This document shows, piece by piece, positions 1,608 to 8,789 of a stretch of DNA of 64,000 nt; position 1 is the first letter of the stretch, and every line of letters begins with the position of its first letter. Under the pieces are notes generated by a model, which had not been told where the DNA came from, made no database searches, and saw only the letters and a list, made by a program, of their open reading frames with translations. The translations under genes were made by a program, and so were the position numbers. Source of the DNA: Planctomycetia bacterium (GTDB taxonomy: Bacteria; Planctomycetota; Planctomycetia; Pirellulales; Thermoguttaceae); assembly GCA_030539295.1 (NCBI GenBank), contig JAUNSJ010000008.1:62001-126000 (forward strand), in the 5' to 3' direction.

Positions 1608-2063
1608 TTATTCAAGTTCGAAATCAAATGTATTCTTTCCTTTGACAACCTGCGCCGAAAAACCGCTTTGCTCCGGGTCACCCCATTTTTCAGGGAGAAG
1701 ATTCTTTAAAACGGGAGGCCGGCTGTTTGTCGGTTTCGCGGGGTTATAAGGCGTGGCCTCTTCCTTTTTTTCTGACGCGTTTATATTGACCACTTTTTTT
1801 ATCGCGACCCGATAGTTACCGGGCATGGCGCCGTTCGTGTCGGTGCCTGCCGTATAAATATTGTATACGCCGTTGGCATCGGTGGTTCCACTACAGCTCC
1901 GTTGGTCAGTCTCGGCGTAGAATAAAACGGCGGCTCCTTCCAGCGGTTTTCCCTGATATAAAACCCTGCCGGTTACTTCGACGACAGGCAGCGATTCTTT
2001 TCCGCATCCGGTCGCGAGTATTATCATCGCTGTAGTCAATACAAAAAATGTGATACGTTGCAT
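1608..2063 (-). CDS. Lipoprotein with carboxypeptidase-regulatory-like (transthyretin-type) domain
   Basis: 151 residues. The N-terminus MQRITFFVLTTAMIILATGC is a lipoprotein signal with lipobox LATGC. The mature part has the beta-sandwich signature VEVTGRVLYQGKPLEGAAV, then TTDANGVYNIYT, then PGNYRVAIKKV, as in the small lipoproteins that planctomycetes usually encode directly after DUF1559 pseudopilins. It lies 31 bp after such a gene. The ATG at 2063 was chosen over an upstream in-frame ATG at 2183 because it has a GAGGT ribosome site and starts exactly at the lipoprotein signal. Role is unknown; a periplasmic or outer-membrane partner of the pseudopilin or glycosidase is an inference. Confidence 0.8.
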   Translation of the reverse strand: MQRITFFVLTTAMIILATGCGKESLPVVEVTGRVLYQGKPLEGAAVLFYAETDQRSCSGTTDANGVYNIYTAGTDTNGAMPGNYRVAIKKVVNINASEKKEEATPYNPAKPTNSRPPVLKNLLPEKWGDPEQSGFSAQVVKGKNTFDFELE

Positions 2064-2094
2064 AATTTTACCTCGTTTGCAAAAATGTGTATGT

Positions 2095-3246
2095 TTAGAA
2101 GGACTTCGTTTCACCACCATTAATGGAACCATAGGCTCCCCAGACGCCAAACAGACTTTCACCTGTTGGACATTGATCAACATCGGGTCCTACTCCAATG
2201 ACACTTGCCAGCGTATCGCCGCAGTCTACGGTGTTTGAAACGAAACGTACACTTCCGTCGACCAATGCCACGTTGGCTCCTCCACTATGTTGACTTGATG
2301 CTGATGCAAATATATGCCAAAACTCTTCAAATCTGCCTGATTTATATTGGCAGTTGGGACCGTTAGGAGGGACAATAGTAAAAAATCCTGCAGACCAAAC
2401 GGAACCTTCACACCATCGACGCCCCATGTAGCTCCACGCCGTTGCCCCGGCGGCCTTCGGAAAATTGATACAATCGGATATACTCGGGACCGACCATTCG
2501 CCGAAAATAAGATTCGCCCGATTCTGTACGTCGCTACCTGGCGGACTGACAAGTGCTTCAGAAATACAAATCGTATTGCTCGTACCGTCGAGAATAGCCG
2601 AAAAATCACGCCCTTTAATCTTCATGAAAACTCCTCGTGAGCGAGCGTCAAGTGTGCCATTGTTAAAATACGTATCGCCCAGACACGCTCGATAATTCGC
2701 GCAGCCGGGAAAATCTTTTTCCGGCTCTATCGTTCCGGAAATATCCGAAGGGCAGAATCGAATGGAGAATTTATGCCCCCAAGGTTTGTAATCGTTGACC
2801 CAGGTCCAGGCGGCACGCGGGTCATCCATGGCACCGTGACAAAAAGGATAATAGTCAACCGTTCCGGAAACGGAGGCCGCGGTTCCTCCTGCGGCAATCA
2901 TCTCATAAGCCGATTGTTGTTCAATATAAGGGAGCAGCATAACCATCCAGGAAAAACGATAAACATCGCTATTATAGCCCATCGGCGGCATTTGCGAAAC
3001 GACATCATGATAATTTTGCAATCCGAGTGCCCACTGTTTAAGGTTGTTCGTACATTGCATGCGTCGGGCCGCCTCACGCGCCGCTTGAACCGCTGGTAAG
3101 AGCAGCGCGATCAGGATACCGATAATCGCAATGACCACCAGTAGTTCAACGAGCGTGAACGCCAGAAATCTTCTTACAGACCCCAACACGCCCCTCCTTT
3201 TCATGTTCACATTTTCGTAATTTAAAAACATTGTCATTTTCGTCAT
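2095..3246 (-). CDS. DUF1559 pseudopilin-like protein (H-X9-DG C-terminal motif)
   Basis: 383 residues. Residues 29-50 carry a type IV prepilin-like signal (AFTLVELLVVIAIIG, Glu at +5 of the predicted processing site), followed by the planctomycete hallmark PAVQAAREAARRMQCTNNLKQ region. The C-terminus has H-X9-DG at residues 320-331 (HSGGANVALVDG). These proteins are very abundant in Planctomycetota; they probably use the pseudopilin or type II secretion route but their function is not established. The ATG overlaps the stop of the FecR gene by 4 bp (ATGA), which suggests translational coupling. There is a second possible start at Met15 (MKRRGV). Confidence 0.9.
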   Translation of the reverse strand: MTKMTMFLNYENVNMKRRGVLGSVRRFLAFTLVELLVVIAIIGILIALLLPAVQAAREAARRMQCTNNLKQWALGLQNYHDVVSQMPPMGYNSDVYRFSWMVMLLPYIEQQSAYEMIAAGGTAASVSGTVDYYPFCHGAMDDPRAAWTWVNDYKPWGHKFSIRFCPSDISGTIEPEKDFPGCANYRACLGDTYFNNGTLDARSRGVFMKIKGRDFSAILDGTSNTICISEALVSPPGSDVQNRANLIFGEWSVPSISDCINFPKAAGATAWSYMGRRWCEGSVWSAGFFTIVPPNGPNCQYKSGRFEEFWHIFASASSQHSGGANVALVDGSVRFVSNTVDCGDTLASVIGVGPDVDQCPTGESLFGVWGAYGSINGGETKSF

Positions 3247-5102
3247 TGTTCTTTCTCCTTTTGGTTGTTATGGGATGAGGGTCGTTCGACGCCTGTCCCG
3301 CGAAACATGTTTTGAGCCAATTCGTTACGCTTGAGCGGACGATCGAAAATCATAAATTCCGAAATGGCTCCGTTAAAATTACGCATCTGTACGCCTTTGG
3401 CAGCGCCGAGAAAATTACCGATACTTCCTCGCCCAGGGTCAATTTTGACCGGGTTCGGCCAAGGCACTTCCCCCCGCAGATTGCCATCGACAAAAAACTG
3501 AATCGTTTTCGCCTGCGCGTTCGCTACGACCGCAACGGTTACCCATACATTAATATTCTTGCGGGAGAAAACGACTGGCGAGGTATATTCTGTCAATTCA
3601 TCCGAATTTTGTGGCGTTATATGAAACTGCACCGCGCCGGTTGTGAGTACCTGCCATAAAATGGTACCGGGCATGCCGCGAAATTCATCACTGGCATAGA
3701 TTACATTGGTCGTTTGCTCCAGGCTTTTTAGTCGCACCCGGGCCACAAAAGTCATCGACTTGTACCCAGCGGAAAAATCCCCAGTTATGGCATCATTGTG
3801 TTTCGTAAACTTACGCGCTGTTGTGCCGGGAATCGGGCCATTGTCCTCTTCAGTTCCGAGTACCTGAACCGTAGTCGGACCGAGACTGTTCGACGCATAA
3901 TTCGTGAATCTTTTATTCACAATTTGTGAAAACTCCAGTCGCGTTACCAGACCTGATATGTCATCAACCTGGGAGTCAACGGCAATTTTTTCTGTCTGCA
4001 ATTCCTTGCCCCAGGCATCGAGTTGTGACTGAAATTCGGCAGTGCTAATATAGTTACTATGGGCTGAAAATACCTTTTTTACGGGCGGAATCGATAACCC
4101 GTACTGTATATATTCGTTGGCCAGGAGAGAGAAAAAATCTTCGCCAGATGTAAAGAAATCAATTTTTCCCTTTTTGACTTCAACTTGTGTTACGTCTTTT
4201 ACCACATCGACAAAAAAATCAGTACCACGATCGACGACAGAGCCGTACGGCGTGGTAATCTTATAGCCGTGGCCTGCTTTGGGAACGTGAACGCTGATTT
4301 TTCCTGACTGACACATTGCCGTCATGGCACTATTAACCGAGAGATCCACAGGACCTTCGAGAACCAGGGTCGTACCATTCTTCATTTCCAGTTGGACCAG
4401 GCCGCTTTTGATCTGGAAATGACTCTCGTCGATCAATTGACCCGACTTGTATTCTTCTGCATCCTTTTCCCAAATAACGTCGATCGTTTCATTGACGCGT
4501 GCCATGGTCGTAATAGGGTCAGCAGGCCCACGCGTCATGGCCTTGCCGACAAAAATAATAATAGTCGTAGCGAGAACCAAAAAGACCGTAATAGCTGTAA
4601 CCACGGGCGCGACCGATTCTTCATAATCCGCACGACTGGGCCAGAAACATTTCTTTGCAAAGCGACCGACTTTGCGCCATACCTGACGCGACAGTTTTTG
4701 TTCCTCTCGCAGTGCCCGAAATTCATCGACCATTGCCGCAATAGGGCGTTCCGCGTTTTGCAAGCGAATGAGTTCGTCCCAATCTGGTTCCACTGCCGTT
4801 GTGTACGCGTCTGCGTCTGAGTCAGTCCCAGTTGCTATCGTTCCTGTGACTGATACTAAAACTTCGGACGCATTCTTCGCAAGTGTATCAAGTGCCAGAG
4901 AATGAAGTTCGCGGCTCTCTTGCTGTTCACTTTTTTGGTAGAGTTCACACAGCAGCAGTTCCGTCACAAGCGAGGCGAGAACATGTGATTCGGCTGTCTT
5001 GTCACTCTTAACAAGGTCAGTTAAAATTTTTGCATTCTCGGGACTTATCGTTCCGTCCAAATATTGACTGGTCAGTACGGCAATGGAAAGTTGTTCAGAC
5101 AT
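3243..5102 (-). CDS. Membrane FecR/LamG protein, probable regulator of the adjacent ECF sigma factor
   Basis: 619 residues. Residues 1-160 are cytoplasmic and helical, with a YLDGTIS motif typical of planctomycete FecR proteins. One membrane span lies at about 164-186. Residues 230-315 are a FecR-like domain (GTTLVLEGPVDLSV, then YKITTPYGSVVDRGTDFFVDV). Residues 425-600 look like a LamG/concanavalin-type beta sandwich (WVTVAVVANAQAKTIQFFVDG, ISEFMIFDRPL). It overlaps the sigma gene by 8 bp. The layout suits a receptor that senses a polysaccharide outside the membrane and controls the sigma factor inside. That role is inferred from gene order and domains, not shown. Confidence 0.85.
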   Translation of the reverse strand: MSEQLSIAVLTSQYLDGTISPENAKILTDLVKSDKTAESHVLASLVTELLLCELYQKSEQQESRELHSLALDTLAKNASEVLVSVTGTIATGTDSDADAYTTAVEPDWDELIRLQNAERPIAAMVDEFRALREEQKLSRQVWRKVGRFAKKCFWPSRADYEESVAPVVTAITVFLVLATTIIIFVGKAMTRGPADPITTMARVNETIDVIWEKDAEEYKSGQLIDESHFQIKSGLVQLEMKNGTTLVLEGPVDLSVNSAMTAMCQSGKISVHVPKAGHGYKITTPYGSVVDRGTDFFVDVVKDVTQVEVKKGKIDFFTSGEDFFSLLANEYIQYGLSIPPVKKVFSAHSNYISTAEFQSQLDAWGKELQTEKIAVDSQVDDISGLVTRLEFSQIVNKRFTNYASNSLGPTTVQVLGTEEDNGPIPGTTARKFTKHNDAITGDFSAGYKSMTFVARVRLKSLEQTTNVIYASDEFRGMPGTILWQVLTTGAVQFHITPQNSDELTEYTSPVVFSRKNINVWVTVAVVANAQAKTIQFFVDGNLRGEVPWPNPVKIDPGRGSIGNFLGAAKGVQMRNFNGAISEFMIFDRPLKRNELAQNMFRGTGVERPSSHNNQKEKEQ

Positions 5103-5643
5103 CGTTCAGCTCCTGACTGAGAATTTGTTCAATACATTCCCGTAATGCGGTCCGAACACGATCGATTCGTGAATAAAGCGTATTCAAATTCTCGCCATCC
5201 TCTTTCGCAATTTCCGTCAGTGGAGTATGCGCATAATAATGACGCTCCAGAAGTTTTCGGCATCGTGGCGTCAGTTTTTGAATACAGGCCAGGAGCGCCG
5301 AAAGTTCACTATTTAAATCGGCCAGACCAGTCGCGGATTCATGCTGACACATAAGCTCCTGCAGATGGTCCGCCAGCCCCAGCAGATATTCCGGTAGCGT
5401 CTTGCGATGACGGCGCCATGCGTCAATTGCAATATCATGGGCCAGTTTACTCAAAATGGGACGAATATCGGCACTGAAATCCCATTGTTCCACTTTCTGT
5501 ATGTAAACAATGAAAACGTCGTTGACAATGTCATCCAGGAGAGAAACAACAGGCGCGGCCGACAAGGCGGCCTTGCGTATGATGCCGCGGTTCGCCATAA
5601 ATAGCTCGATGGCTCGCTCACGTTCTTTTTCCGATATTGCCAT
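5095..5643 (-). CDS. ECF sigma factor (Rhodopirellula/Verrucomicrobium type)
   Basis: 182 residues, the size usual for ECF sigma factors. Region 2 is at about residues 15-75 (DDIVNDVFIVYIQKVEQW, DIAIDAWRRHRK). Region 4 is at about 120-175, with a helix-turn-helix PLTEIAKEDGENLNTLYSRI. It is the first gene of a five-gene operon with FecR/LamG, DUF1559, lipoprotein and glycosidase genes, with overlaps or gaps of at most 31 bp. The start has GAGGAGAT eight bases upstream. It probably directs transcription of its own operon and other glycan genes; the target promoter cannot be told from this window. Confidence 0.9.
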   Translation of the reverse strand: MAISEKERERAIELFMANRGIIRKAALSAAPVVSLLDDIVNDVFIVYIQKVEQWDFSADIRPILSKLAHDIAIDAWRRHRKTLPEYLLGLADHLQELMCQHESATGLADLNSELSALLACIQKLTPRCRKLLERHYYAHTPLTEIAKEDGENLNTLYSRIDRVRTALRECIEQILSQELNDV

Positions 5644-5985: not shown

Positions 5986-7197
5986 CTACAGTTTAAATTC
6001 CGGAATCGTCATGGTTTCGCCGTCTTTAAGGGCACTTTGGTGCGCGAACCAGCCGGGAGCGGTCATATTCAGCGCGGCAATAATGTCGACGTTCGGGGCG
6101 GTCTTGTTTATTATGGCTTGAGCGAAATCATGGCAGAGGTAGCCGTGGGATTCGCCGTGACCACCGGGTGCAACGCCTGGCGGCAATTCCGGCTTGAGAA
6201 TGGTATTGCCAAGTTTTTTCACAATTCGTTTGCCGTCATCGGTTCCGACGTATTTTCGGGTAAACTCATCGTAACCGCCAATTTCACCGCGAACGCGTCC
6301 AGCTTCCAGATAGGTACCGTAGGACGGACTGACCATAATTCGGGCAAGTCCCTTCTCCTGTGTACGAAAAAGGCCAATTTCCGACGAGAACGGGTTCCCG
6401 GTCGGGTCTTCCGCAGGTTTATCGAAGTCGCTGTACGGAATTCCTTCACAACTGACATCGACCAGACGCTGACCCGTCACGCCAACATAATAGGCAGAGG
6501 CATGCGTCACATACCACATCGGCGGCATATTCTTGCGCCAGCCATTATAGGAATCAATCGGCGGTAATTTCGGGTCGCGCGAATGGCAATATTCGCCTTC
6601 CGAATAGAGAATGCGACCGAAGCCACCGGCGGCATAGATCTGCTTCATGGCGTAGAGGTCGGCGTGAAAGGTGGACGTCTCGAACATGGCGTAGACAAGT
6701 CCGCGATTCTTCCGAACACACTCGAGCAATTTTTCTGCGTCTTCATAGTTGCCGAAGAAAGCCGGGACAGCCGTTGCCACATGCTTACCATGTTCCAGAG
6801 CGAGAATGGCATGTCGCGCATGACTCGGCGCATCCGTTGCCAGAAAGACTGCCTCAATGGAATCATCTTTAACAAGTTCCTCAAGAGAGGGATACGTTTT
6901 TTCGCAATGAACGACTTCGGACAGAGCGGAGCAGCGTTCGGGAATCAGGTCACTGACCGCCGCAATTTCAAAGTTCGGATGATGCTGAAATTCAAATTGC
7001 GCGGAGAACTGACAGACACCATAACCGACCAGACCGACACGGATTTTTCGGTCGGAAAAAGGCGTGTAAGGAGCCGGGGTGAGCTGGGGGCCCGCGTTCT
7101 CCTGCGCCGCGACAGACGCGAATTCTGCTGTACTGGCCAGCCCAAGTGCGGATAGTGTCCCCAAAAACGAACGACGCGTAAATTCAACTTTTTTCAT
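5986..7197 (-). CDS. Tat-exported Gfo/Idh/MocA-family oxidoreductase
   Basis: 403 residues. The N-terminus has a twin-arginine signal (TRRSFLGTLSALGLAS). The Rossmann fold starts at IRVGLVGYGVCQF (GxGxxx), followed by the usual SLEELVKDDSIEAVFLATD and HGKHVATAVPAF. In this family the last motif is normally GKHVxxEKP, with a lysine important for catalysis. Here EKP is replaced by AVP, so activity may be altered or lost. The C-terminal half (about 160-400) is the GFO_IDH_MocA_C-type sheet domain. A GAGGAAA ribosome site supports the start. It lies 22 bp after the lipoprotein gene and is likely co-transcribed with the GntR regulator. A sugar or cyclitol substrate is likely but unidentified. Confidence 0.85.
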   Translation of the reverse strand: MKKVEFTRRSFLGTLSALGLASTAEFASVAAQENAGPQLTPAPYTPFSDRKIRVGLVGYGVCQFSAQFEFQHHPNFEIAAVSDLIPERCSALSEVVHCEKTYPSLEELVKDDSIEAVFLATDAPSHARHAILALEHGKHVATAVPAFFGNYEDAEKLLECVRKNRGLVYAMFETSTFHADLYAMKQIYAAGGFGRILYSEGEYCHSRDPKLPPIDSYNGWRKNMPPMWYVTHASAYYVGVTGQRLVDVSCEGIPYSDFDKPAEDPTGNPFSSEIGLFRTQEKGLARIMVSPSYGTYLEAGRVRGEIGGYDEFTRKYVGTDDGKRIVKKLGNTILKPELPPGVAPGGHGESHGYLCHDFAQAIINKTAPNVDIIAALNMTAPGWFAHQSALKDGETMTIPEFKL

Positions 7198-7219: not shown

Positions 7220-7729
7220 TTAGTGATTTATAAGCCGACCACTGCGGTCAACTTTTAATTCTTCCCGAACGCTCTTGCCCACGTCAAACGTCACGTTACG
7301 CTCGCTGCTGGCGGTCACCTCGAGCGACAGTGATGTTGTATCGGCGGCACCGAACGACCGGTCAATGAGTCGAAAAACCCGGATGGCAGTGGATCCAAAC
7401 GTCGAATTCTTCCCGGTGTCATCCGCATTTCCAACACGCTCCGTCTTACTGACCGTAACCTTAAAACTCCCTTCCGGACAGCCGGGAAAACCCTACGTAA
7501 AGATTTTTGCAATTCCGTTGGCGTCCGTATTGGCACCAGCGGGCCATCGCTGTAATTCCGGGTCACTTGAAATGAGTCCAACACTGGCATCGGTCAGGGG
7601 CGTGCCCTCTTGCGTTATCTTTATAGACATTGGATAGAGCTTCGGGAGTCCATCCGGGCGCGGTTCCTGAAAACAGCCTGTCATGAAAGGCAAGCAAAAT
7701 AAAATGAAAATTGGAATTTTGATCGTCAT
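7220..7729 (-). pseudogene. Small lipoprotein gene interrupted by an in-frame TAG codon
   Basis: The start (ATG 7729, AGGAGA upstream) opens a lipoprotein signal ending in FMTGC. The frame meets TAG at 7495-7493 (codon 79) but then stays open in the same frame for 90 more codons to TAA at 7222-7220. The downstream part is clearly protein-like: GFPGCPEGSFKVTVSKTER, then FDVGKSVREELKVDRSGRL. The product matches the family of the lipoprotein at 1608-2063: TDANGVYNIYT...PGNYRVAIKK there, TDANGIAKIFT-stop-GFPGCPEGSFKVTVSK here. A single base change from TAT or TAC would create the stop. It could be a nonsense mutation, readthrough, or a sequence error. Between GntR and oxidoreductase genes. Confidence 0.8.
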
Positions 7730-7819: not shown

Positions 7820-8458
7820 TTACAGTTTAACTACGGTATTGCCTTCAAGTATCTTTCGCCCGGGAATGACATTCTCCAGGGGTACGGACTCATGTCGAAG
7901 AATTTTCTTTCCCAGCTCCGCCGCTTTTATACCCATCTTACGCAGTGGAAGTGGGACTATGGTTGGAATGAGCGGGTAATAAAGCATATTTATATTGGGA
8001 TCGCTGTCCCAAATAATAAAGGAATACTGTTTGGGCAACTTGATTTCATAAAGGTTAATTACCTCAAGTAGCGCCATGGCCAGCTTACAGGAGCCGAACA
8101 GTAAGACAGTAGGTTTTTTCTCTTTAAGAAATGTAATAAAGATGTCCATATATTCGGGCAGAATTTTTGTTCCGCCACACATCGTCTCAATTTCCGAAGC
8201 GGTTTTCGCAACGAACGTGCCGAGACCCGGACGACGCTCCAGCCAACCTTCCTCACGAAGTCGATCGACCGACCGACGCACAACCGATCGGCTTTTCCCA
8301 ACCAGTTCAATGAGTTCCCGGTCCGATAAAAAACGATCGCCGCTCACAAATTCCTCTTCCCGAAGACATTCTCGCAACAGACACGACAACTCCTGCTCCG
8401 CACCGTAATGCGGCAGATTTAAGGCTCTTTGTTGTATTGTCCTGTAACGCTTGTCCAT
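7820..8458 (-). CDS. GntR-type transcriptional regulator with shortened LacI-like effector domain
   Basis: 212 residues from ATG 8458. The winged helix is at about residues 22-85: FVSGDRFLSDRELIELVGKS, then RSVVRRSVDRLREEGWLERR, then PGLGTFVA. The C-terminal part (YSFIIWDSD, PLRKMGIKAAELGKKIL, ENVIPGRKI) resembles the end of LacI/GalR periplasmic-binding-like domains, but there are only about 110 residues between the winged helix and the end of the protein, whereas complete GntR-LacI proteins have about 270. Most of the N-terminal effector subdomain is absent. An in-frame TTG at 8482 lies inside the repeated leader and is less likely. The protein probably controls the leftward operon and its own leader. 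Confidence 0.85.
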   Translation of the reverse strand: MDKRYRTIQQRALNLPHYGAEQELSCLLRECLREEEFVSGDRFLSDRELIELVGKSRSVVRRSVDRLREEGWLERRPGLGTFVAKTASEIETMCGGTKILPEYMDIFITFLKEKKPTVLLFGSCKLAMALLEVINLYEIKLPKQYSFIIWDSDPNINMLYYPLIPTIVPLPLRKMGIKAAELGKKILRHESVPLENVIPGRKILEGNTVVKL

Positions 8459-8470
8459 AATTCTTCTGAC

Positions 8471-8725
8471 GATAATCCGCAATTAACACCGGTTTTTTTA
8501 CTACCGACTTCTCACCTTTCTCTTATTCGACCCAATGGCCGCCTGACAATAATCCGCAATTAACACCGGTTTTTTACTACCGACTTCTCACCTTTCTCTT
8601 ATTCGACCCAACGGCCGCCTGACGATAATCCGCAATTAACACCGGTTTTTTTACTACCGACTTCTCACCTGTCCTCAATTCGCCCCAACGGCCGCCTGAC
8701 GATAATCCGCAATTAACACCGGTTT
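8471..8725. repeat. Tandem repeat, 3.3 copies of a 76-77 bp unit, in the leader of the GntR gene
   Basis: Units start at 8471, 8548, 8624 and 8701 (periods 77, 76, 77); the last is cut after about 25 bp. Copies are nearly identical, with a few base changes and a one-base change in the T-run. Each has GATAATCCGCAATTAACACC followed by GGTTTT, including the palindrome ACCGGT. The array lies between a consensus promoter (8761-8789) and the GntR start (8458), so it is transcribed as a leader of about 295 nt. It may hold repeated operators or a regulatory RNA element. Confidence 0.95.
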
Positions 8726-8760: not shown

Positions 8761-8789
8761 ATTATACAGAGAGCAAAAACTTTTGTCAA
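8761..8789 (-). promoter_or_regulatory. Consensus sigma-70 promoter for the GntR operon
   Basis: On the minus strand TTGACA (8789-8784) and TATAAT (8766-8761) are both perfect and are separated by exactly 17 bp. The expected transcription start is near 8754, just before the tandem repeats. No gene was seen between here and the end of ahcY at 9016. Confidence 0.85.

Follow-up and report, generated by a model that had tools for sequence, protein, structure and literature searches.

A recent nonsense mutation probably explains an in-frame amber codon in one member of a large planctomycete lipoprotein family

Introduction

Young bacterial nonsense pseudogenes with a single lesion carry one in-frame stop in a gene that is otherwise intact, have redundant paralogues, and have a stop that is not common to their relatives. 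Functional genes can also contain in-frame stops: Belinky et al. 2021 (PMC7918605) reported bacterial in-frame stops under purifying selection, and these stops are common to several species. In E. coli, TAG leaks less than TGA, and reporters show that a G directly after TAG raises leakage (PMC11126739). The DUF1559-associated lipoproteins of planctomycetes are recognized by a lipobox and by the motifs PDGLPKLYP and EG(S/T)(F/Y)KV, and they are found with ECF/FecR genes or a full-length regulator; in ten relatives, a GFO/IDH/MocA oxidoreductase adjoins the lipoprotein gene.

Here we analyze a lipoprotein gene with an in-frame TAG in a 64,000-nucleotide stretch of planctomycete DNA (the window). 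The gene has the lipobox, both motifs and the adjoining oxidoreductase of the DUF1559-associated lipoproteins; in contrast to these relatives, it is truncated at codon 79, there is no DUF1559 gene beside it, and the regulator upstream is a shortened GntR-LacI type. It resembles the genes described by Belinky et al. in having an in-frame TAG followed by an uneroded frame; however, its stop is a single occurrence. We found nothing that distinguishes it from young bacterial nonsense pseudogenes.

Results

The frame is open on both sides of the amber codon

Minus-strand translation of positions 7220-7729 placed the frame and its TAG exactly where the earlier note had put them: 78 codons precede the amber codon, 90 open codons follow it, and a TAA at 7222-7220 closes the frame (Table 1). 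The upstream segment begins with an ATG at 7729 and has an AGGAG ribosome-binding site 5' of this ATG, both of which are intact. Reading the sequence shortly 3' of the TAG, we found no codon suitable for restarting translation, and the first in-frame ATG, GTG or TTG past the TAG is a GTG far into the downstream segment. We therefore rejected translation restart after the TAG. An AlphaFold2 model of the read-through protein together with one relative was poor (mean pLDDT 44); the TAG would fall after the fourth of seven strands predicted in this model, a placement to which we give no weight.

Table 1. Positions in the window of the amber codon, the two parts of the lipoprotein frame and the neighboring features
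Feature	Position	Strand	Evidence
In-frame amber codon, codon 79 of lipoprotein frame	7493..7495	-	translation; family alignment
78-aa 5' part of lipoprotein gene, encoding signal peptide, lipobox FMTGC and first half of domain	7496..7729	-	translation; homology
3' part of lipoprotein frame, 90 open codons before TAA, with homology to the C-terminal region of intact paralogues	7220..7492	-	translation; homology
GntR-LacI type regulator, 212 aa, part of ligand-binding domain missing	7820..8458	-	PF00392 1.4e-10; PF13377 C-terminal part; alignment
GFO/IDH/MocA family oxidoreductase, intact, 403 aa, ends in TAG at conserved C-terminus	5986..7197	-	PF01408 2.2e-15; congeneric homologues 52-67% identical
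Tandem repeat of a 77-bp unit (3.4 copies), located between regulator start and promoter-like site	8466..8725	.	repeat analysis; nowhere else in genome
Perfect sigma-70 consensus TTGACA-17-TATAAT, promoter-like, upstream of regulator-lipoprotein-oxidoreductase	8761..8789	-	sequence match

Both halves of the frame belong to one lipoprotein family

When the lipoprotein frame was searched with its stop masked as X, it had 58 matches in its own genome, and homology places the gene in a paralogous set of about 58 DUF1559-associated lipoprotein genes in this planctomycete. Both halves of the frame have full-length homology to the family: the nearest paralogue, L002 (G000:C27:82300-82770), aligns with residues 3-157 at 55% identity (E 1.6e-51), and past the stop 41 of 87 residues are identical to L002. 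Because the whole length aligns to intact relatives, chance does not account for the open frame past the TAG, and these identities agree with the earlier note, which had proposed that this segment had been coding sequence until recently. The gene at 1608-2063 that served as the comparison in that note is related to the window copy; however, it is remote (26% identity), and L002 is far closer. At the stop, the window copy reads IFT-stop-GFPGCPEGSFKVTV and L002 reads LYTYGYPGCPEGSFKVTV; the stretch flanking the stop is IFT-stop-GFPGCPEGSFKVTVSKTE in the window copy and LYTYGYPGCPEGSFKVTVTKTE in L002. We found no orthologue or paralogue more than 55% identical to the lipoprotein, and it had no match when we scanned the contigs of other assemblies or searched a plasmid collection. 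In Pfam, the family shows only sub-threshold similarity to CarboxypepD_reg.

To compare the codon across relatives, as had been suggested, we aligned 62 family members, 20 from the same genome and 42 from relatives. Tyr is the commonest residue in the stop column (25 sequences); His is next (15), then Met (7), and a few other residues also occur. Only the window copy has a stop in this column, and it alone of the set is truncated; none of the 61 other aligned members has a stop there, so that the premature stop stands where relatives have sense codons, as in a nonsense pseudogene. Stops had also been flagged inside other matches (TAG in L011, TGA in C85, TAG in L083, and L028, L037 and others); those we inspected are ordinary terminal stops that the alignment had overrun, with the exception of L150 (see Discussion), and we rejected a recurrent amber in the family.

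TAG is an ordinary stop codon in this genome

Of 73 long ORFs taken from the window and from three further stretches of the genome, 16 end in TAG; this set was compiled mechanically and may include a few spurious frames. The next in-frame stop lies a median of 18 codons beyond a terminal TAG and likewise 18 codons beyond a terminal TAA. The oxidoreductase of the same operon ends in TAG at the point where its relatives end. RF1 is present (455 bits, over the cut-off), and none of 42 tRNA genes found in this 88% complete genome has a CUA anticodon (genes identified by Rfam, anticodons by ARAGORN). Internal stops are absent from the DUF1559 copies among the matches listed (153 were found) and from all 42 GFO_IDH_MocA domains in the genome; the stop counts for the whole genome come from the searched families and the sampled stretches. 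Both the statement that amber is a normal stop here and the judgment that genome-wide recoding is unlikely, made originally from a few genes of the window, are borne out by these counts.

The operon departs from the usual arrangement

The stop lies in an operon whose genes all run in one direction (minus strand): the GntR-LacI regulator, the broken lipoprotein gene and the oxidoreductase. The locus had been described as a regulated operon, and a regulator gene does head it; however, that description overlooked the missing part of the ligand-binding domain. The regulator has 212 residues compared to 394-416 in its relatives, and the alignment shows its ligand-binding domain to be shorter by about 165-190 residues. 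The gap covers the first portion of this domain, and only positions 72-164 of 167 of PF13377 (Peripla_BP_3) are matched. This comparison is with a related locus, since the regulator relative in genome G001 adjoins the G001 orthologue of the oxidoreductase (67% identity). The regulator is still an open frame and, judging from its sequence, could have decayed or could be a short form that acts constitutively.

The oxidoreductase gene, on which the earlier note had thought a polar effect possible, is intact and carries a ribosome-binding site of its own (GAGGAA, with a 22-nt gap). When we scanned other assemblies with the oxidoreductase, we found only homologues of at most 60% identity, and the window lipoprotein is beside none of them. 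The occurrence of an oxidoreductase of this type next to the lipoprotein in ten relatives indicates that the pairing is old. In the 4.1 Mb genome, we found 153 DUF1559 matches in addition to the roughly 58 family lipoproteins, and DUF1559/lipoprotein modules carry genes for an ECF sigma factor and FecR-like proteins, for example at 1608-5643 in the window. Among the 20 aligned paralogues from this genome, 19 have a DUF1559 gene at a distance of no more than 1.5 kb, as do 38 of the 42 sequences from relatives; the window copy is the one exception in its own genome. By sequence, the window lipoprotein is a family member, but one that stands outside the usual DUF1559 module. The locus departs from the usual arrangement in three ways, namely the stop in the lipoprotein gene, the shortened regulator and the missing DUF1559 partner, and these departures fit relaxed selection on the operon, which we infer here.

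Upstream of the regulator, each unit of the 77-bp repeat carries ACCGGTGTTAATT, which is possibly a repeated operator.

The downstream half is not visibly eroded

To look for decay past the stop, we asked which sequence carries the residue that is rarer in the family at each position that distinguishes the window copy from L002. Past the stop, the counts are equal (21 in the window copy and 21 in L002); before the stop, they are 14 and 7. Measured against outgroups, nonsynonymous divergence past the stop in the window copy is about that of L002. We detected no excess of change past the stop, which may mean that the stop is too recent to have left one or that the saturation of synonymous sites hides it; because of this saturation, the sequences set only loose limits on the age of the stop. 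In the TTPL motif, the window copy has Ser in place of a conserved Pro, which may be a weak hint of erosion. Since the segment past the TAG has no excess divergence, the stop appears to be recent, and the downstream half bears no sign of prolonged neutral decay.

Discussion

The earlier note had left nonsense mutation, readthrough and sequencing error open. We think it probable that the amber codon is a recent, ordinary nonsense mutation affecting a single copy within a large and redundant paralogous family. A single-base change at codon 79, a column that is mostly Tyr or His in relatives, would have truncated the gene, and RF1 would terminate translation at the TAG to leave a 78-residue lipoprotein fragment without the second half of the domain. 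Such a fragment is probably non-functional. Loss of the gene would be tolerable because many paralogues are left, this locus lacks the DUF1559 partner, and much of the regulator's ligand domain is gone.

The main rival is an error in the assembly consensus or a strain polymorphism; in that case, the predominant strain would have a sense codon here, and the base in the contig would be wrong or come from a minority. The genome is a draft assembly of 88 contigs (87.9% complete), and the downstream frame, the ribosome-binding site and the start are all intact, as this explanation would have it. However, about 190 genes from two large families in the same assembly have no internal stop among the matches listed, and a base error leaves both the truncated regulator and the missing DUF1559 partner unexplained. 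We consider this explanation unlikely, and we infer that the stop is present in the organism and not merely in the assembly.

Functional readthrough, by which a fraction of ribosomes would pass the TAG at a low level and so tune the output of full-length lipoprotein, is in our judgment very improbable. The open and uneroded downstream frame and the intact ribosome-binding site and start are consistent with it, as are the G that follows the TAG, a favorable base in E. coli reporters (PMC11126739), and the precedent of in-frame stops under purifying selection (PMC7918605). However, the stop occurs in only 1 of 62 family members and lacks the conservation expected of programmed readthrough; RF1 is present; no suppressor tRNA was found among the 42 tRNA genes of the 88% complete genome; and in E. 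coli, TAG permits less readthrough than TGA (PMC11126739). The RNA 3' of the TAG folds no better than shuffled sequences (z 0.21), and we found no stimulatory structure there. Nothing in the sequence around the TAG suggests programming. Amber recoding, genome-wide or conditional, would fit an in-frame TAG with a homologous open frame past it, but with RF1 present, no CUA tRNA gene among 42, TAG in normal use as a stop and no internal stop among the matches listed for the roughly 190 other genes, it is excluded within the limits of a genome that is 88% complete.

The codon-79 amber is most likely an ordinary inactivating mutation, rather than a novel reading of the genetic code. As a nonsense mutation, it carries little weight beyond annotation, where automatic callers would report a lipoprotein of 78 aa and overlook the remainder of the frame. 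It offers one example of the loss of a member, alongside parts of its operon, in the large lipoprotein families of planctomycetes.

A further damaged copy was found in a relative. In L150:424-696 (G034:C165), a TAG likewise interrupts the frame, which is broken further on. As this TAG is at another site and the frame after it is broken, L150 is an independent pseudogene, which suggests that the loss of family members by this route is not unusual.
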